Origin: Siphlonurus alternatus
Taxonomy: Eukaryota > Arthropoda > Insecta > Ephemeroptera > Siphlonuridae
Reading direction: 5' to 3'
DNA length: 64,000 nt
Assembly (NCBI GenBank): GCA_949825025.1
Contig: OX463785.1
Span: 12,091,971-12,155,970 of the forward strand
Under the pieces are notes generated by a model. It saw only the letters and a program-made list of their open reading frames with translations, was not told where the DNA came from and searched no databases. Each line of letters starts with the position of its first letter. Within the stretch, counting starts at the first letter, position 1. Position numbers and translations under genes: made by a program. Positions 10,126-60,700 of this stretch are shown here, one piece after another.

Positions 10126-13100
10126 CACCATTGCTATGTAGCTGTACAGCGAGGTGTATTATCATAATTGATAAAGAATATGGTAATAATAAATTGCATG
10201 AAATATAGTAATAATAATATTAATAATTGTATACTTTATTCAATAACCAAGTGCATTATAATATAATTAATGTAATTATGCATCCACTTAGACATCTCTT
10301 TCATAATATAAGGAATTAAATAATTAAAAAAATATTGAATACGTATTTTATAAATTTCAACACTATGACCTACCAGACTGGAAATAAATTCCACGTTTTA
10401 TTTCCTCCTATATATTTCATATTTTTTTTTATTATATTTTTAAGAAAAAAAAAAAAGATAACCATCTAAAGTATTAAAATAAATTGTCCCTATTTCATCC
10501 TCACTTTGAGTGGGGAAGAAATTAGATGTAATTTTGATGTAAGAAGAGATATTAAAATTATATTAACGAGTTGAAGACGTAATTTTCAACTCTGTTTATC
10601 TTTATGTTGACAGGTGTTCTGACGCCCCGCAAGTCAGTGTACGGCAACTACTACCTGCCGTACGCCCGCCAGATCAGCGCAGTCTTGTTCGACGACAAGT
10701 TCGAACCTGATGACCTGTGGACGGTCCTTCTCATGCAGTTCGGACAATTTATCTCACATGACATGTCCATGGCACCGTCCGTACATTATGGTCAGTTAAA
10801 ATAATTAAAATTAATTTTGAATTTTTTGAGATAATTTTAAAATTACATTTACTAAAAACATTTTGTAATTTAATAAATAGTTTTTCCACGTTACTTTACG
10901 GTTTGCAACAAAGAGGTGTAATTTTATTTTACTGTAATAAAGATATACAAAAATTTATTTTATTAAAATCAAATAAATAAAATAAATAATTTTGTGTTAA
11001 TTATGATAATTTTAAATTTCAATTTATTTTACTTTTATCATTGAAAATTTTCACAACATTTATTAAAATAATCTAATAGTTTGAAAAATAAAATATATAA
11101 ATTTCCAAGATGTCTTAAGTTAGCAAGGATTAGTTTCTTAATTAGTAAGTCCGTATCTCTTTTGTATTAAGTAAGAATTGAGTAAAATGGGGCTGAAATC
11201 ACAACTCCATTTAAATGTAAAATAGCAAATTGTAACAACAAAAATGACAATATTCCGTGACCAGAGATAGGATGCCCAAGTTATACTAAATTTTAACCAT
11301 TTATTCACATTGAACTCATCTCTACTTTTTTTTATCCTATTTTGTACCATTTTCGAGGAATGACAAGATTACGTATTCTATCCTCTTATTCAGCATAACA
11401 TGTTAGAAATTTTGTCTCCATTTTAATATCACTTTAAACGAGAAGAAATTAATGTTTTTGAGGTAAAAATACATCAGATTAATCTTAGACGTATAAAGGA
11501 CGAGTTGAAGACATAATTTTTCATCTTATGCTATGATGATAAAATTCTCGCTGTTCATATATAAAAGTTGTGACTGTTCCCACAGGCTCTCAAGGTATTC
11601 AGTGCTGCCTCCCCGACGGCTCGGGTGTACTACCAGGCCATCTTCTCCACCACGCTTGCTACCCCATCGTGATTCCTGACAAAGATCCCTTCTTCTGGAA
11701 CTTCGGGCAGCGCTGCATGAACTTCGTGCGTACCATGACCGTAGCTCACCCTGACTGTAGGCTGGGACCGGCGGAACAGGTGGGTACCGTTCTAGACCAA
11801 GAACTACACTCAAATTAATTTTACATTCCCACCGGAAGTGCATGGGAAGTTTCTAGCCTTCCTATTCGTATTTCGGTTTTGAAATTTTGACTACAGGTTC
11901 GTAAGAAGAGTACTAACATGTTTGCAAATTTTCATAACTCAGACATGAACAAGATGACCAGAAAACTCTCACTTCCGGTTCTTTCTGGCGGTAATATCAA
12001 ATTAATTTGACTTTATCTCAGAGACCCTACAGAGACCTCCGTGTCATATGACCAGGAATTTGAACAACCTGGGCGGAGCTTCACTGCTTCTGAGAGTGCG
12101 GCGGCGTCACTGAATTGCATCGGCAGTCGGCACGGCCCGGTTCTCGCTAGCAGCCAGCAAGAAACGGGCCCTGAATATTTATCAGCATTGCCACTCTCAG
12201 AAACAGTGAAAATGATCAAATACCTGGCCATATGTCACGGAGGTTTCTGTAGGGTCTCTGGTACTTACTAAGAGAATGGATTAACTTTCAAATCGGTTGC
12301 TTTTGCCGCCAATGCAAACCAATGTCGGAACACTGACTCTGACTTTTTAAATTTTTAAGCGCATTTGATTGGCTATAACCTAACTATAAAGGTGCTGCTG
12401 TCAAAGTTACCACTTCTACTCAATAAGATGAAAGAAGATGTAATCTCGTCTTTTTTCCTTAGAAACGGTGCAAAATAGGAGGGAATTAGATGAGGAGAGA
12501 CGTGAATAAAATATGAAAATTATTTCAATCGTATCCACTCTTTCTCTTCCCAGATGAATGGAGTGACCCACTGGATAGACCTGTCCCAAGTTTACGGTTC
12601 CTCCGATGATGAATCTCGCTCTCTACGTCAATACCGCGGCGGTCTTCTGTCCTACCAGTTCCGCGGCGGTCACGTGGTCTTACCTAACGCCGAAGCTGGC
12701 GAGAACTGTGCGTCCGGATGTCCGTACAGTGCATGTTACAAGTCTGGGGACAAGCGAGTCAATCAGAACGTCGGTCTGACTACCTTACATATCTTGTTCT
12801 TGAGAGAACATAACAGACTGGCCACAGACCTGGCAAAGTTGAACCCACACTGGGATGATGAGTATTTGTACCAGGAGGCAAGGAGGATCGTCATTGCTAT
12901 TTATCAACATATCACCTATAATGAGTATCTACCTATTGTACTGGGTGAGTATTACCTGTTCAAATTATCATCGTTTTATTTTATTATTTTTTTACTCATG
13001 AGTTATTATGTCTTTTTACCTTAAAAACACATCTTATTTTTTCATTGGGGATGAATAAAAATGAAATTTTTCAAACATTTTATGCTCAATAAGAGGAAAG

Positions 13101-16100
13101 AAGCCGTAATCTCGTATTTTTTTCTCGGAAATAATGTACAATAGAAGGAAAAAATACGATAAGAGACTTAATGAATTTAAGATAAATTTTATATAAACCG
13201 TGGTGACTTGTTTCTCTAATAATCATAATTACGACTCAGGTTGGGACTTCTGTGCGGAACACAACATCGTAGCGGCCAATCAGAAGTACGGAGGGTCCGC
13301 GGGCTACAACGACTACGTCAGTCCGAACGTTCTCAATGAACACGCCACCTCAGCCTTCAGATACCTGCACACCACCGTGCACAGTCACAGCGAGTGAGTA
13401 CATGTTTGTAGGTCGTGAGTTCGAATCCCAAGAAAGGGTATTTTTAGTCAAGGTGACATAATCGACCATTTTCACTGAAGTTTTTACCTTTCCATGGGGG
13501 TCAATAAAAAAACTTTTTGCAGTTTTAAACATACAACATGCGCGTTTCTTTAAAACCATGAAAATAAATATTAATGAAAGGAGCGTCAGAAAATTCAGTT
13601 TAAATAATATATTTCTTGTTATTTATAGTGCATGTTTATGAAAGCAGAATTTTAATCACAAACGGGTTCTACATAATATACAGTATATTATGTACAGTCG
13701 TTGCCTTGGAAATGCCCCATAGGAATAATGCAGGACATGGACAAGGCTCCAAGTGGGAATTTTTCCAAGGTGACAAGTGTACGTATAAATGCTACAAACG
13801 CATAAATACGTTATTTATTGCTTTAAAGATGTTACTCCCAAAGTAGTGATAAAGTCTGTAATATTTTGGGCTTTCGTGCCTAGCAGGTTAGGCAACTTGT
13901 TATACTTGTCAGTGAAGCAGGTTGCATATTTGGTAGGCAGATATTTTCGTCTTATTTCTCGTACTTGGTGGTAAGGTTGATATATATAATATATTACTGA
14001 AGTAAATTATTATTTAAAAATAATATAAATTTAATATTTAATAAAATATACCTCTATAGCGTTTAAACATTTTTTTTTTCTTTTTTAATTTGCTTTAAAA
14101 CAAAATGATAATAATGAAATATTATCTATCATAGATATTTAATTATAATATAAAAGTTGGATGTTCCTGAAATATGTGAAAAATGTATGATCGATATGTT
14201 ATGCAAAAAGTATGTACGTACTAGCATTTTGCTAAATTAAAAACTCCCCTTACTACTTAAAAAAATAAGAACAGTATTATTCAAGAATTTTTACTTGCTC
14301 TAGTTAATTGATGGACGCAAGGAATGTACAATGTTTTGCTTATGGTAATTGTTTTGTATTTAGTGTTCACTTATGTTGTAATTTTCATTGATTTATTAAC
14401 TATTTACTTTATTAAAATATTAAAAATCTTAAATGTAACAAAAAATAAAACATTTAACATTTATAGTTATCATAATTATAAATCAAATTTGAAAAATTCA
14501 TTTTTAAAATAAAAAATAAACATTTCAAATTTACAAAAATTACATTATATTTTAAATAACTTAAATAATTATTTGTAAAATGAATTCACGTAATTAAAAA
14601 TGTGAAAATAATAATTTATTTTTGATATTTTTGAAGATAAAAAAATATTAATATTCTGATACAATTTATGATTCAACTACGATGAATAATAGGGGAAAAA
14701 AATCAATATCAAGTAAACTATAGATTGTTATGATTGTTTTGTATATAATGTTCACTGAATCCTAGAAACCTCCCGAATGAATCTTTTGAATATATAAATT
14801 GCAAAATATGGGGCGGAGATGGCGCTGCTGTAGTGCTTGTTATTGAAGTTTTTATGTCTGTTTTATTTCTACAAATTATGTGATAATATTAGTGCATACA
14901 AGTTTTAAAGTATGTAATTTATATCAGTGAATATTGTGCTGATCTGAAAATCTAACAAGATTTGTATTTTCATACTTGCTTTAAGCAAAATATTAATAAT
15001 CCGTGATCGTACAGACAACATTCAGTAAGTAGACACTTTTATACTGCAATACAGATAAACATGCAGGTCATGACTGAGCCACCTCCTCTTATTTATCAGT
15101 CATTACAGCAGCATAACATAAGTCATGATACAAATTATAATGTAAATTATAATACACAAAGAATAACAAGCGAAGTGATGCAAGTGTTTAGACCTTTGTT
15201 TACTGCACTAGCACATGATATAAACAATATATGGAACAAATTAGAACATATTAATAATAAAAATGATATTATAAATAATAAATGTGATCAATTATTGGAC
15301 AATTATCTGACTCTGGTGAACTTTAATGCAGGGAAAGGTGCTGCTACTGTTAGGAATGGAGTTTTAAGTGACAATTTGAAGTATGATTATTGTGGAGTGA
15401 CTTCTCAACTTAGAGAATTACCTCTTCGTAGCAGTGCACCTTGGGATCCTCGGCCTTCACGTGATACAAATCACTCCGCGCTACGAGTACCTGAATTTCC
15501 CAAGGAGTGGCGCGGCGATGACCTTCGCCCACATATTTTCACACTGAAATCTGCCCGCTCGGTGACACCTCCTAATGACGGTCTTGCACATCAAGACGAC
15601 TACGGGTGGCAGGAAGTACATCACGGCGGCCGCCCGAGTAGCAGCAATCAAACTTTTGATATTCTAACAACTAATAGGTTCGAGGTGTTAAATAATATGT
15701 CAGAAAATATTGTAACTAATAGACCTTTGAAACTTTTCAAAATTAATTACATTACTGGAGACATTTTTGAAATTATAAAAAAAACACCAATAGTTCATTG
15801 TGTGGGGAGTGACTTCTTAATGAAAAAAGGATTTGCTAAAAAAATTAATGAAATTTTTGGACAAACAGACAAATTACTTGATATGAATAAGAAAGTAGGA
15901 GAAATTGCAGTGTTGCCAGTTTGTGAGAATAGTTACATTTTTAATATGATAACTAAAAAATCATCTTATGACCTGCCTTTTCTCAATGATATAATGAAGT
16001 GTCTTTATGAATTAAAAGAAGTGTGTCTTATTCTTGGCGTTACCAAAGTTGCAATGCCAAAAATTGCTACAGGAAGAGATCAAGTGAGCTGGCCCACTAT

Positions 16101-19100
16101 TAGCAATATGCTCTACAAAGTGTTTGCTGGCACTAATTTTACAGTAAATGTGTACAGCCTGCCTCCAAGAGAGAGAGAGGGTCCAGTAGCATCAGATCCT
16201 CCTTCTTTTCTCAGCATAAAACACTACCCACCTCTATCAAGTAAGGACAATGTGATTAAAAATTATCAAACAAACAAAATTGTCACACCAAAAAAAAAAA
16301 ACAAATCACCTGATAAACATCGTAAAGACATATCAATGTATACCCCCTCTCCAAGGTCTTTTACGCCTCAGATACAAAGGAACGAGATGGGTGAGGAGGA
16401 GACAAATATCACACCACCCCCAACCAAATCCCCCACGGAGAACATTGTGATGATTACTGCGGGCAAGCCGCGAGTTGCGATGAGTGAGTTGGTGCAAGCG
16501 ACAAGTGAGGCGGGCTCTGTGGCGAGTGAGGTGGGTGTGGAGACACATCCCTCCCACCAACTCTTTGCAGACTCCTCGAGCACGACCCGCTTGACCCTCA
16601 GCACCCCTCGGACAGGGGGAGTGATGCCTCTTTTCGAGCAAGAAGAAACATCGCATGCTTTGTTTGACGGTTCGTCAGAGACAAGGTATTTGTTAGTGGA
16701 TGATGAACCGTCAATGGTTGATGAGTTTGAGGATGCTGAAATTGGTGTTCCTTTAGTCACTCGTGACACATTTAATACATCAATAAAAGATTTTAATGAC
16801 AGCTTACAATCGTTAAATATTTCTCCAGTTAAAGTATCTACAACGGTCAGTACTTTTGATAAGCCGTGCCTTAGGCCACGTCCAACTAAACATGCAATTA
16901 CCTAGCATTGATTTAATTACGTATGTGTCTATCAACCCTAATAATTGTTCTAATTCTCTTGATAAGCTGCGCATTATGCAGTTAAATATACCTGGTCTTA
17001 AAAATAAATTAAAATCTTTTGAGACTGAGTTAGAAAATGAAAATGTTGATATTATTGTAATTTGTGAGCATGGCTTACTGGAACATGAAATAATTTCACT
17101 ATCATTCCATAATTATTATATTGTTTCCTATTATTGTCGTTCCACTCGGATATGTGGTGGTGTAGCAATTATTGCAAGAAAGAGTCTTACGTCAGAAATA
17201 TTTAAAGTTACTTCCATAGAATCTTGTTTCGAATGTGCAGCTGCAAAGTTTTCTCTATGTACTTCTCAATCTATATACATAGTTTCTTTATATCGTCCAC
17301 CTGACAATAGTAATTTTAAATTAAAATATAATGGAAAAATTTATGACACAAATATGAAATTATTTTTACAAAATTTGGAAGATGTTTGTCAAAAATTAAT
17401 TAAATGTTGTAAAAAAAATGATATTATATTACTGGGAGGGGACTTTAATATTAACTTATTTAAAAAAGATAACATTTGTAATATGTATATGGATTTATTA
17501 AATTCTTATAATTTATCAGTTTTAAATAATGTAGCTACAAGAGAAACTACTACAAGTGCCACATTAATTGATCATTTAATAATTAATGACTTGCATTTTG
17601 ATTCACAAGTAACTACTACCAAATCAACACATTTATCTGACCATAAGTATACTATTGCAGAAATATTATATGAAATAAATTCTGTTAAAATTCAAACTAA
17701 AGGTAATTTTACTAGGCATTTTAGCCAAGATAATCTTGATTATTTTCATAGAATTTTACTAAAAGAAAATTGGTCTGATATTTTAAATTCGAGTGTTGAT
17801 TCTAATACAAAATGGCAGCTTTTTCTTGATATTTTCAATTATCATTTTAATGAAGCTTTTCCAAAGCAAAATAAAAAGAATAAAGTTAACAATAATAGTA
17901 AACCACCATGGATTTTAAAAAATCCTCAAATTGAACTTGATAGCATTCGTTTGAAAGAGTTGCATAAGGCCTCTAAACTTGATAAATCTTTGAATCAACA
18001 ATATAAACATGAACTAACTAGACACAGATCAAACATAAGTAAAGCTATTAAAACAGATAATGAGGATCACATAAATAAGGCAGCAAATAAAATTAAAGCT
18101 GCATGGGAAATTATATCCCGGAGTTGTAATGTCAAACCTCCTAAAAATATAGCAATTACAGAATTATTGATTGAAAACGATATTGTAACTGAACCTATTG
18201 AAATTTGTAACCATTTCAATAATTTTTTTGTTAACAAAGTAAATTTTATGGTCCATGATGAATTTTTAATTGATTCTGTTTCGTATGATTTTGACAACTT
18301 TACACAATTTGAAAATCATCCATTTACTTTTCACCCCATTTCGTTTGATTCAATGCTAAATAATATAAAATCACTACCTAATAAAAATACTGCAGGCCCA
18401 GATGAGGTTCCATATAAGGTAGTAAAATACTGCGGACCATTACTAGCAGTGCCATTGGCATATTTAATTAACGAATCTATATCTGAAGGTGAATATCCTA
18501 AAGTGCTAAAGATGTCAAAAGTTTTCCCATTGTTGAAAAAAGGTTCTAAACTGGATATTAATAATTATCGTTCCATTTCATCAGTTTCTGTGTTCGGTAA
18601 ATTATTTGAAAAATCATTGGATGATCAAATTACTGAACATAGATATAATAATGGGCTTATTTCAGACAGTCAACATGGGTTTATTAAAAATAAATCTACA
18701 ATAACTGCTACTTTTGCTTTGTTAAAATTAGTATATAAATGTATTGATAGCAAAAAATATTGCCTTGCAATTTTTTTTGATTTTGCTAAAGCATTTGATA
18801 GTATTGATAAAAATATAGTAATAAAGAAGTTAGCTGATTTAGGATGTAATTTAAAGAGTTTAAAATTGTTTCATTCTTACATGTCAGAGCGCTATCAATT
18901 TGTTCAAATTAATGGTGACAAATCTGATATTTTGCCCGTCACCCTCGGCGTTCCACAAGGGGGTAAAATTTCCACTACACTCTTTGGTATTGGGATTAAC
19001 GACCTGCCTGAGCATGTAGATGCTGAAGTAATAAAATATGCAGATGACACTACGGCATTTGTTTCTGCTGATACAGAGGAGGAGTTGATTCAGTTAGCTA

Positions 19101-22100
19101 ATAAAGTTGTTAAGGATGTTCAAGACTACTGTACTGAGAATAGACTTATGTTAAATAAGGATAAAACTGTGTTTATACAGTTTCATTCTCCCCGGTCACC
19201 TCCTGATAAGTCTTATTTGATTAAAATTTTGAATACCCCAATTAAAAGGGTACCTTGTGCGAAATTTTTAGGGATCCATATTAATGAAACTTTAGACTGG
19301 ACAACTCATGTGAATGAAATATGTAAAAGAATTAATTGGGCAAATTTTGTTTTGTATACATTGCGTGATCATGTATCTCAAAAAACTTTATTCACTGTAT
19401 ATTATTCTTATGTGTATCCTCATTTGGCTTATGGACTAATTTTTTTTGGTAGTTATTCCACTCATTTGAATAGACTCTTCATCTTGCAAAAACGTGCTTT
19501 GCGTACTATTCTTCATTTTAAGAAGACAGATACTTGTGTCTCACATTTTAGGGTGAATAATGTTTTAACTTTACCTTCAATGTACATTTTAAATTGTTGT
19601 GTATTTAAGCGCAAGTATCCTGAATTGTACACATGTAATGTTGATACTCATTTGTATAATACAAGAAACAAAGATAAAGTTACTACAGAAAGACATAACT
19701 CTGCTCAGTTCGAGAAAAGTTCTTTTTATCAAACTGCAAAAATTTATGATTTCTTGCCAAATAGTATCAAAAATATTGAAAGTGACGTTGTTTTTAAAAA
19801 AAGTTTAAAAAAAATATTGATTGAAAAAGAGTTCTATTCAGTGAAATCATATTTTAGTAACAAAATTAGTGAAAGTGTTATGATTAATGTACCTGTTAAT
19901 AATTGATTTTTTATTATTGTATTTATAAATGGTTAAAATTTATATCGATTATGCAATGTTTTATGTTTTGTTTTCAGTGTCTGACGTGAACCATGTTGTA
20001 TGTACAACCAGTTGTTCCAAAATAAAAAATAAAATAAAATAAAATGAAGAAAAAATTCGATAATAAAGTAGATATTGAGCCTAGTGGAGTTTAAAATTAT
20101 TTTTAGTTAAAATTATTATGCATGTACACCTTTTAATTGGCACCACGAACTATACTCTTTTGTTTGGGGGCATTGTCATGCAATTTATAGCTGCAGTTGG
20201 CGCGATTTACGAAGAGAGTTATCCAGGTTTCCCACTAAGGCTTGTCGACAGAATCGCATGATTTCGCAGAGTATGATAAAAAAAATTAAGAAACTATGCG
20301 ATCAGGTATGCGCGCGCACACAGCTTCGCATGGTATCGTATGGTATGATATCGTAAGTTTCTCATTTAGAACCGGTTCTAAATTTTTATCATACGAAGTC
20401 ATACGATATGAAATTATGCGATGCTGTCTGCGAGCAGCCTAACAAGTTTAGTGTCATTGAATTAGGCTGGCGCTAACCGCGGCTGGTGAGAAAGCTGGAT
20501 AACTCTTTCTGAATCACCCCCAGCGCTAGCAAACGAGACAGGAGTTTCAGTACTGGTGTCTCGAGTTCTTAAACTGCTTCTTATCATTCCAGACTGTACG
20601 GCGAGGGTCACAGCTACAACGGCTCCACACGAATGAGCGACCACTTCAACTGCCCTGCGATTCTTGAGGAGACTCCTTACAATCTAGACTACTACGTGCG
20701 AGGAATGTGTACCTCGCCCATGCAGAAAGCAGACAAGTACTACACGCATGAGGTACACCCCGGGACGAATGTATCTGTACTTGTTTACCCCAGAGTTGTT
20801 ATATTAATATAATAAGATATTAGAATGTGAAAATTTTAGTTTCTTAATCGAAAGAAGGGGTAAAAATATTATACTCTGAATTTTTCCAGAATTTTCTATA
20901 AGACCGGGAACTTATATTTTTAAAAAATTATTGAAAGCCTATTTTATGACGTCACGGGCGGCACTGCCCTATCCTTTTTCTTGAAGAGTGCCGCCCGTGA
21001 TGTCATCAAAATAGACTTTCAATCTTTTTTTTAAAAAATAGTTCCCGGTCTCAGAAAAATCTGAAAAAATTCACAGTACCATATTTTTACCCCTTCTTTC
21101 GATTAAGCCATTGCACTAAAATTTTCACATTCTAATATCTTATTGTGTTGGGTTTAAATAGCAAGTACAGTTTACTTGAAAATTTTATAAATTAGAAATA
21201 TTTATTTAATTATTATTAAAGGCAGTATACAGTGATTAAATCACAATTAAATGTGATTAAATGTCAAGTCTTATATACTAACAATTTAAATCAAAGCACA
21301 ATGAAGTCTGTCATATCTATTAAAGCCAACAATTATCTCTTCTTATCATTGTCACTAAAATCACCTGCTGGCTTCTTTCTGTGGTCTGTAGAACGTGTAC
21401 CTGCTGCTTTTTTGTAGGAGAAATTATCTAGGACCATCTCCTACCCTGGATTATCCCATGATATCAAATTTCAGGTTAACAAATTTCACGCCCTAAAATT
21501 TAAATCTAAAAATATACTAATTGTCTTTGGGGACTGTGCATGTGTAAATGGAAGCATATTTTATATACTTTTTATAATGTGTAAATTAAGTATACACTTT
21601 TCTTAAAGTATATTTGAGAATATTGTTAAAAATACTGTAGTAGATTTGCAGTAAGTGACATTGTGCCAGTTAAAGATGGCTACCATAGGATATCACAGCA
21701 AGTGCGCAAAATCTATTATAAAATTGCCCATGTAAACACACCTTTACACTACTTTCACCTTGAGTTCTTCAGTTCCAAAACTAGAGCTGTGATTGGTTGT
21801 TGTAGATCACGTGGTTCCTGTTCCGCTCCGGTAAACCATTCGGACTTGACTTGGAAAGCTTTGACATCCAGCGCGCTCGTGACCATGGTCTCAAACCATA
21901 CAACGACTACCGCGTTTTGTGTGGCCTGCCTCGTGCAAAGAACTTCCAAGACCTTCTGGACGTGCTCAGTGAAGAGGTGAGAGGTTTTATCTCTTGATTA
22001 AACCATGGTGGCTCCATTTACTATGGTGCTGACACGGATAAGACCCATGTATAAGGCTCGGCCAATCAGAGTGCGCAATTTTTGTCACATGACAGCAATT

Positions 22101-57700: not shown

Positions 57701-60700
57701 CGATTTGAGCAGAACTAGTTTTGCCCAAAATGAAATGCGCCAAAGCCGAAAATAGAACTCACTTCGGCTTTGGCTCATTTCGTGATGCGCAGAACTAGAT
57801 GTGAGCATTTTTTTCGGCTTTTGCCCGAATTCGGCTTTGGGTGCCACCAGTTAATCTTCTCCCAATGTATGAAAATATAATTGAAATTATATTGTATGAA
57901 CAAATTATTGAATATGTTGAAAATAATAATATTTTATGTGAGCATCAATCAGGATTCAGAAAGAATTTTTCATGTGAAACAGCCATACAGTTAGTCTTAA
58001 CACAGTGGAGGAAAAATGCTAATGATGGAAATATTACAATAGCGGTAATGTTAGATTTTAAAAGAGCCTTTGAAACAATAGATCGAAAAATATTAATTGC
58101 AAAGCTAAAAAATTATGGTTTTGGCCCAAATTGCATAAATTTAATAGACAGTTATCTTACAAATAGAAAACAAAAAACAAAAGTGAACAACAAAACCTCT
58201 AGTGAAATAATAAATGACCTAGGGGTGCCCCAAGGGTCGGTCCTTGGACCTCTATTATTCATCTTGTATATAAATGATTTGTATTTGCAACTTGATGATG
58301 TGCTCTTTAATTTCTTTGCTGATGATACTCTTGTTTCAGCATCGAAAAAAACGTACGAAGAGGCGTGCAATGTGATAAATAAAAGTCTTGTAAGGTTGAA
58401 TATTTGGCTGAAAGTCAACAAGGTAAAATTTAATGTGAATAAATCAAAATGTATATTAATACTGCCTTCTTCTTTTGTAAAGTCAAATATTATTGAAGAC
58501 GTGAATAAAAGTAGTGTAATTATTGATGGTGAAATACTTGAATTTGTAGATGAAATTAAATATCTCGGTATTATTATTGATTCACATCTTAATTTTAAAA
58601 AACATGTTGCATATATTAATAAAAAGGTTGGAAGCAAAATCAGCTATTTAGCAAGGATAGGTAATTTTTTAAGTCCGTGGACAAAAGCATTAATTTACAA
58701 AACAATTATTTCACCTCATTTTGAGTACTGTTCTACAATTTTATGGGACAGTAATGAAGAAAATATTAAAAAATTGCAACTGTTACAAAATAAGGCAATG
58801 CGGGTAATACTTAGATGTAATAAATTAACTCCTATTAATTTAATGTTAGACACAATGTGCTGGATGTCAATCAAACAAAGGTTGGCATTAAATGTGTTAG
58901 TTTTTGTTCACCGAATTGTAAACAAGAGAGTGCCAAACTACCTGTGTAATGATATAATGTACCACAATGAAGTCCATCAACACAACACAAGAACTGCCGG
59001 CAATATTCGCATCGGGAAACAGAAAAATAGATTTTATCAAAAATCTATTATGGTTAGTGGATTCAAACTGTTTAATAGTTTACCAAGATATGTGAAAAAC
59101 ATCGTAGATAGCAAACAATTTAAAAGAGAATGTGTTTTATTTGTTAAAAAAATGTTTTTAAAAAAGAAATATACAAACTGATTTTGTGACAATAGGAGGA
59201 AATGATGAAAATTGTAATATTATCATAAATATTTTATTATAATATAAAAGGTGGATGTTCCTAAAATATGTGAAAAATGTATGATATGTTATGCAAAAAA
59301 TATGTATGTACTAGCATTTTGCTAAATAAAGAATTTTACTTACTTACATATACGTACATTAAATTATAATAATTTGGGCAATGGAGGATCGATCTCAAAA
59401 ATTTTATTGCAGAAATGGATCGAGGGTTCAAAGTTAATCTATTCTAAATACATTTCAGACTTTTTAGAATCCGTGAACTACTTTTTTTTTAATTAATTAA
59501 AATTACAGAGAATATGACGCCTCTTGACGCCTCTCTTATTAATAAAAAGATAGAACCTACAAGAGGCGTGGGTTCAAACCTGACCGCCAGCTGCAAAACT
59601 TTTTAGCAATAGTTAATTCCGGGATTTAAAAAATCTATTTTTTTTAATAGTATAATTATTAAAAAAGTTGAAATATTATAATTTGTCATGTAAGGAGTAT
59701 ATTTAAAATATATAATTATATTAATTTTCAGAGTATAATAAGGTACGTGTCTTTTAATGTTTGCTTTTCTTGAAGTGCGACAGCATAGAAGTACTAATTA
59801 TATTTAATAACAGCCCTAAATAAAATTCCTCCCAAGTTTTTACTTTTTTTTTCCGACTTGATTACTATTAAAATTACCGAATTGAAATGAACAAAATAAT
59901 AAAAAATTGCATTTTGTTCATTCACCTAGTCAAGTAATTTTCAATTACCTCATATTATGCTGGTGAAATTGTATCCATGCCCTCAACTTGGGGGTCATTT
60001 CACCTTCAGGTCCACCCTGAAGTGCCTGAGGGGCCGAGCGTTCGAGCATCGAACTACGCTCCGCCGCGGCCAACATCAGAGAACAGACGAAGGCGTCTGT
60101 TGTAGATCCGATAAAGATTGGCGTCAATGTTGCAATAGCTGGAGACAAAGAATAGTTGTAAGAAATTGTATTTTTTCTACCTTACCGTATGTCTAACATG
60201 TTCTAATAGAAGAGTATTTTGATCACTCATAACTCATAATTATTACATATTAATATCACTCATAATTACATATTAAATATTAAAATAGTTACAACAGCAT
60301 ACACTATATAGGCAAGCAGAGTCAAAATATATGATATTCTGCATTGTATTATATGTCCATCTTCTTTCATAGGTACTAATTAATTACAATAATCAAACCG
60401 TACACTATAAGACTGCCTAATGGCAAAATTTACTTGGTAGATCAATAAAAATTTTATTTCTTATTTTAAGTACTAAAATCTCAAAAATCTGCCTCTAAAA
60501 AAAAAACAAAAAAACAACAATAGAATTTCTGTGAATTTGCTAAAGTTTACATGTTAATCAAAAAGGACTGCATTGAACAGCTGATCCGTGTTATCTCTAC
60601 CTTACGAGAAGTCATTTTTTTTTTTTAGGTTCTTTGGAAGACTATCATGCATTCTTGAAATCGAATTACAAAACGTTGTGATGTCATTATCATATATCAA

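Follow-up and report, generated by a model that had tools for sequence, protein, structure and literature searches.

In long interspersed elements (LINEs), the first open reading frame (ORF1) stands before an ORF2 that encodes an APE endonuclease and a reverse transcriptase (RT), and its modular, domain-swapping architectures have been sorted into types I-V (RRM/CCHC, Tnp22, PHD, esterase and unclassified), type IV being one that carries an enzyme domain, the esterase. The ORF1 protein (ORF1p) is thought to package LINE RNA. Table 1 of the survey of 448 Jockey-superfamily elements by Metcalfe & Casane 2014 (PMC4120745) gives RRM, CCHC, PHD, Tnp22, esterase and related modules, with subgroup L2_1 entered as 'No hits' and CR1_2 as mostly unidentified, and a macro domain is absent from that table. 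Another captured enzyme domain, a viral SF1 helicase, is described from insect Jockey-like LINEs, in which ORF1 likewise lies near or overlaps ORF2 (PMC5563155). ADP-ribose-related domains have also been reported from retrotransposons, namely NADAR domains in Ectocarpus Gypsy Pol and in oyster Tx1 LINE ORF1 (PMC12477816). Fish epsilon-like endogenous retroviruses have macro-domain ORFs (Basta et al. 2009, as cited in PMC4977317), although these lie in an additional ORF of a retrovirus-like element and not in a LINE ORF1, and the citing text in PMC4977317 does not state the macro class. Here we describe a LINE whose ORF1 almost certainly carries a macro domain of the TARG1/OARD1 class, located in a 64,000-nucleotide stretch of DNA (the window) from the ephemeropteran insect Siphlonurus alternatus (assembly GCA_949825025.1, contig OX463785.1, positions 12,091,971 to 12,155,970 of the forward strand). 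No macro domain in any LINE was found in the literature on macro and NADAR domains and retroelements, with Repbase and most subscription papers lying outside the search. NADAR (YbiA) and macro domains belong to separate families. Enzyme captures in LINE ORF1 and macro domains in retroelements are both known, and a TARG1-type macro domain in a LINE ORF1 is, as far as the literature was searched, a new variant.

ORF1 (15061..16905, plus strand) encodes 614 amino acids, of which residues 226-367 (15736..16161, plus strand) form the macro domain, and the TARG1 placement is agreed upon by sequence, profile and predicted fold. Against structures in the PDB, phmmer aligned ORF1 over these residues with the whole domain of human TARG1, its best match (E 6.4e-26), and hhalign to TARG1 gave an E value of 7.9e-34 as a single comparison. 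The model of the domain has a mean predicted local distance difference test (pLDDT) score of 89.9; Foldseek returned TARG1 at all of ranks 1-8 (E 1.7e-13), and the VIA structural comparison returned it at all of ranks 1-6, with DarG second by fold. A chance match is ruled out by these three E values. The general Macro model of Pfam matched weakly, both for the excised domain (E 0.0005, 20.4 bits) and for the whole ORF1 (E 0.0079, 16.6 bits), and since these scores fall under the cut-off of 22, annotation by Pfam alone would miss the domain. Membership in DarG was rejected, as the NCBIfam equivalog NF048014 scores 25.7 against a cut-off of 250 bits. The human counterpart, TARG1 (OARD1, C6orf130; ALC1-like macrodomain class), differs in that the domain here is part of a 614-residue LINE ORF1 and reads ATGRD for GCGLD and MKKGFA for MGAGIA. 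The original prediction, made from the letters of the sequence, had proposed such a domain in a retrotransposon ORF1 with both catalytic residues in place, and phmmer, hhalign and Foldseek bear it out. The ORF, the coordinates and the motifs (IVHCVGSDF at residues 244-252, ITKK at 297-300 and ATGRDQVSW at 336-344) were found as it had described them, its end point at 16170 corresponding to residue 370, two codons past the residue 368 that it named. The profile and structure comparisons with macro domains that it had suggested as a check gave significant matches, and a further ORF1 emerged from the protein search.

That ORF1, P0001 (567 aa), was the one protein returned from 5217 candidates when the full ORF1 was searched against about 5.8 billion proteins (E 5.7e-133), and a search restricted to the region likewise returned P0001 alone (1/183 candidates). 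The two proteins are identical at 234/467 aligned columns (50%), and the alignment extends past the macro domain in both directions, so that a macro-bearing ORF1 is, by sequence comparison, present in at least two divergent sequences. A one-off capture is made unlikely by the ORF1 plan that P0001 shares. By region, identity amounts to 45% for residues 1-120, 58% for 121-214, 67% for the macro domain (223-368), 33% for 369-480 and 30% for 481-614; the macro domain is the most constrained part of ORF1, because 98/146 of its positions are identical, compared with 165/405 in the rest (Fisher p 4.9e-8). In viral contigs, none of 142 pattern stretches for ORF1 and not the single stretch for ORF2 was confirmed, and in genome contigs none of 33 stretches for the macro domain was confirmed; in viral contigs, 3/83 stretches for the macro domain were.

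According to PMC7050489, Lys84 and residue 125 form the catalytic pair of TARG1, and its substrates comprise O-acyl-ADP-ribose, mono-ADP-ribosylated proteins and ADP-ribose phosphoesters at nucleic-acid ends; that paper writes residue 125 as Glu125, whereas the sequences here show Asp. The corresponding residues of ORF1 were read from an alignment of 39 of the best 120 matches of the domain, hand-picked for variety, together with P0001, with insect OARD1 not among them; the domain-alone protein search had passed 1915 proteins, and within those best 120 the named ones were, judging by their names, vertebrate OARD1s and one mollusc protein. By this alignment, Lys84 corresponds to K299 (codon 15955..15957, plus strand), which is the first lysine of ITKK, the second (K300) being replaced by E in P0001, and residue 125 corresponds to D340 (codon 16078..16080, plus strand). 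Nine OARD1-type rows all have K84 and D125 (OARD1 numbering), the residues that align with K299 and D340, and across the whole alignment the pair is kept in both ORF1s and in 39/39 OARD1-type rows, as are G233, F236, D251, M254, G257, P333 and G338 in all 41 rows. Inspected by eye on translations, 0/3 macro domains from IMG/VR contigs have the dyad, and the pair therefore characterises TARG1 and does not simply come with the macro fold. DarG retains only the lysine of the dyad, in contrast to both residues in ORF1, and SCO6735 has neither (both as given in PMC7050489).

With the dyad in place and the fold modelled as that of TARG1, the ORF1 domain is probably an active ADP-ribosyl hydrolase. 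Its substrate would be the element's own ribonucleoprotein particle (RNP) or nucleic acid, a proposal that we hold tentatively, and the reading that we favour as a whole, at a little under an even chance, is an active hydrolase working in cis inside the RNP of the element. ORF1p would multimerise via its N-terminal helix and coat the element RNA, while host ADP-ribosyltransferases would add ADP-ribose esters, either on ORF1p and ORF2p through Asp/Glu or on the ends of RNA or cDNA through phosphate; K299 and D340 would strip these esters, and the RNP would thus stay able to carry out target-primed reverse transcription.

Several observations weigh against an active hydrolase of this kind. The GCGLD and MGAGIA loops line the ADP-ribose pocket, and both are altered: GCGLD, present in 39/39 OARD1-type rows, is ATGRD in both ORF1s, with G, C and L changed beside the catalytic Asp, and positions 41-42 (OARD1 numbering) are KK in both ORF1s, where OARD1 itself varies (G in 32/39, A in 35/39 and K42 in 4/39). 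Two further positions fixed in 39/39 rows are changed in both ORF1s (S35G and I44F). Binding of ADP-ribose could be modified or lost through such changes, and within the modelled domain confidence is lowest in the block that holds the catalytic loop (mean pLDDT 73). G338, G257 and D340 are retained in these loops, other positions are changed identically in both ORF1s, and these shared substitutions suggest altered specificity, whereas loss of catalysis is less likely because the dyad is retained. With +5 and +6, the domain does not differ in net charge from OARD1 (median +5, range -3 to +12), and positive charge was no longer taken to point to nucleic acid as the substrate. P0001 is the only relative found, and it lies on a 1961-base contig on which ORF2 was not seen beside it. 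Finally, most vertebrate PARPs are reported to be absent from insects (PMC10221186), which counts for an insect host.

The altered loops also bear on the alternative that the domain is a reader and not an eraser, which we consider unlikely. It would bind ADP-ribose or poly(ADP-ribose) (PAR) and tether the ORF1p RNP to PARP-marked nicks or PARylated host proteins, catalysis being incidental. PARP1/2 are described as gathering at L1 integration nicks and promoting retrotransposition (PMC8535693), from which a PAR-binding ORF1p would gain, and the nuclear shuttling of TARG1 is reported to be controlled by damage-induced poly-ADP-ribosylation (PMC5928194). A pure reader needs no dyad, however, and the dyad is kept in two ORF1s that are only 50% identical. 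The same retention, together with the ordinary overall charge and the residues invariant in all 41 rows, makes it quite unlikely that the macro fold is a repurposed scaffold, now serving as an RNA-binding or packing module of ORF1p without ADP-ribose function, even though ORF1 has no Pfam nucleic-acid-binding domain, so that another part must bind RNA, and the basic residues K255, K256 and R339 are common to both ORF1s near the catalytic loops.

The original prediction had offered a further version, in which the domain acts as an eraser at the target-site nick and counters the PARP signalling of the host while the element integrates. In its favour are the class of the domain and the ORF2 endonuclease, which should nick DNA, yet human L1 retrotransposition is reported to fall on loss of PARP1 or PARP2 (PMC8535693), and the damage mark in Drosophila is mainly serine-linked ADP-ribose (Ser-ADPr), with the TARG orthologues there not seen to remove mono-Ser-ADPr in the work described in PMC10238386. 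The nick model is therefore weakened, and we regard it as very improbable, while a reader role keeps some room. Of the earlier interpretation, the TARG1-type domain in a LINE ORF1 stands, now with the dyad kept in a second, 50%-identical ORF1, whereas the counteraction of PARP at the integration nick has lost ground. That the macro-bearing frame is a host gene, or a fragment captured a single time, which merely abuts a LINE is largely refuted and remote in probability, for although P0001 was not seen with ORF2 on its short contig, ORF1 is uninterrupted by introns and runs 14 nt into ORF2 in the same orientation, and P0001 follows the layout of ORF1 before and after the domain, with 234/467 aligned columns identical.

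A hydrolase acting in cis within the RNP would invite comparison with viruses, since macrodomains are described as helping RNA viruses against host ADP-ribosylation. The broadest form of the favoured reading, which we consider rather unlikely, would be an animal LINE lineage with an active TARG1-class hydrolase as the main domain of ORF1, retained while the lineage diverged to 50% identity. The reason would be that element RNA, cDNA or ORF proteins are ADP-ribosylated by the host to hold retrotransposition in check, and ORF1p would then be a counter-defence that the element itself carries, comparable to the macrodomains of viruses. A LINE that keeps a macro domain in ORF1 would allow ADP-ribosylation to be tested as a means by which hosts control retrotransposons, and a dyad-bearing domain in this position hints that ADP-ribose tags may matter in the conflict between jumping genes and their hosts. 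A TARG1-type macro class would also join the ORF1 types beside the esterase, PHD and helicase forms.

Concerning the origin of the domain, a tree was built from 17 rows, comprising 12 of the 39 OARD1-type sequences, both ORF1 domains and the three IMG/VR macro domains (L001-L003), with a midpoint root for drawing only. The two ORF1 domains group together, next to animal OARD1, and are split from the IMG/VR macros with support of 100/99, two of the IMG/VR rows being flagged as long. In the viral structure library BFVD, VP8 of Kadipiro virus ranked second (31% identity, template modelling score 0.87); its macrodomain is similar in overall fold by model, but VP8 is a viral protein and not part of a LINE. 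The other BFVD matches of the macro model included a Cressdnaviricota protein and proteins of virga- and negev-like viruses of thrips. Since insect-associated viruses carry similar macrodomains, the domain may have come from a viral donor, and the viral forms, to judge by the models, may represent either donors or parallel captures.

Elsewhere in ORF1, the macro domain appears, from sequence, to be the sole recognised domain. RRM, CCHC, PHD, Tnp22 and esterase gave no Pfam match in ORF1 or in the two pieces flanking the domain, single-sequence Pfam searching being less sensitive than the comparison of hidden Markov models with one another used in the published survey, and the CCHC pattern was not found in ORF1. 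Matches under the Pfam cut-off (UDPGT at 0.14 and 0.026, RebB at 0.14) were taken as noise. The full-length AlphaFold2 model of ORF1 is poor (pLDDT 32); it predicts, with low confidence, a long N-terminal helix at residues 28-99 (15142..15357, plus strand; block mean pLDDT 27-56), which is a possible coiled coil. Base composition varies along the frame, with a GC content of 0.44-0.49 in the parts 15421-15726 and 16165-16905, compared with 0.31 in the macro domain, 0.31 at the start of ORF1 and 0.28 in ORF2, a contrast that may reflect a mosaic origin.

The element as a whole spans approximately 14801..20050 on the plus strand, with both ORFs intact and, at its 3' side, an A-rich tail of 26 bases in AAATA/AAAAT repeats (20020..20045, plus strand). 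ORF2, counted from its first ATG, encodes 1004 amino acids (16892..19906, plus strand) and shares 16892-16905 with ORF1, which lies directly upstream. Its APE-type endonuclease domain lies at 16976..17644 (plus strand; PF14529 2.1e-7, PF03372 1.5e-5), with GGDFN and SDH motifs present, and its RT domain at 18536..19282 (plus strand; PF00078 1.1e-31), with YADD present; no Pfam match to RNase H was obtained. Compared with solved structures, ORF2 matched LINE-1 ORF2p chains at ranks 2-5 (E 8e-15 to 2.2e-14). Stop-free runs in the element reach 1029 codons, compared with a maximum of 128 in 200 mononucleotide shuffles, and the copy therefore looks recently intact. On this sequence evidence, the element is apparently an intact non-LTR (long terminal repeat) retrotransposon with an APE endonuclease and an RT. 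Its ends are approximate, and a comparison of 14600-14870 with 20015-20200 for a target-site duplication gave no exact match of at least 9 bases. A second DNA copy was not found within the window by blastn.

The surroundings point to a host gene. An exon-like stretch of an animal haem peroxidase lies 5' of the element (12554-13024, plus strand; profile positions 147-282, E 3.1e-57), and another, weak and under the cut-off, lies 3' of it (20591-20752, plus strand; profile positions 334-377, E 0.0013). The element thus appears to sit in an intron of a haem peroxidase gene, in sense orientation. Close downstream of the element and of the second exon-like stretch, nested inverted repeats occupy 20806-21149, with arms 91-94% complementary, resembling palindromic miniature inverted-repeat transposable elements. 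Farther along the window, a second retroelement fragment (57841-59181, plus strand) contains an RT frame that stays open over 446 aa (RVT_1 6.6e-28); its identity with the RT part of ORF2 is 27.6%, which places it in a different family.

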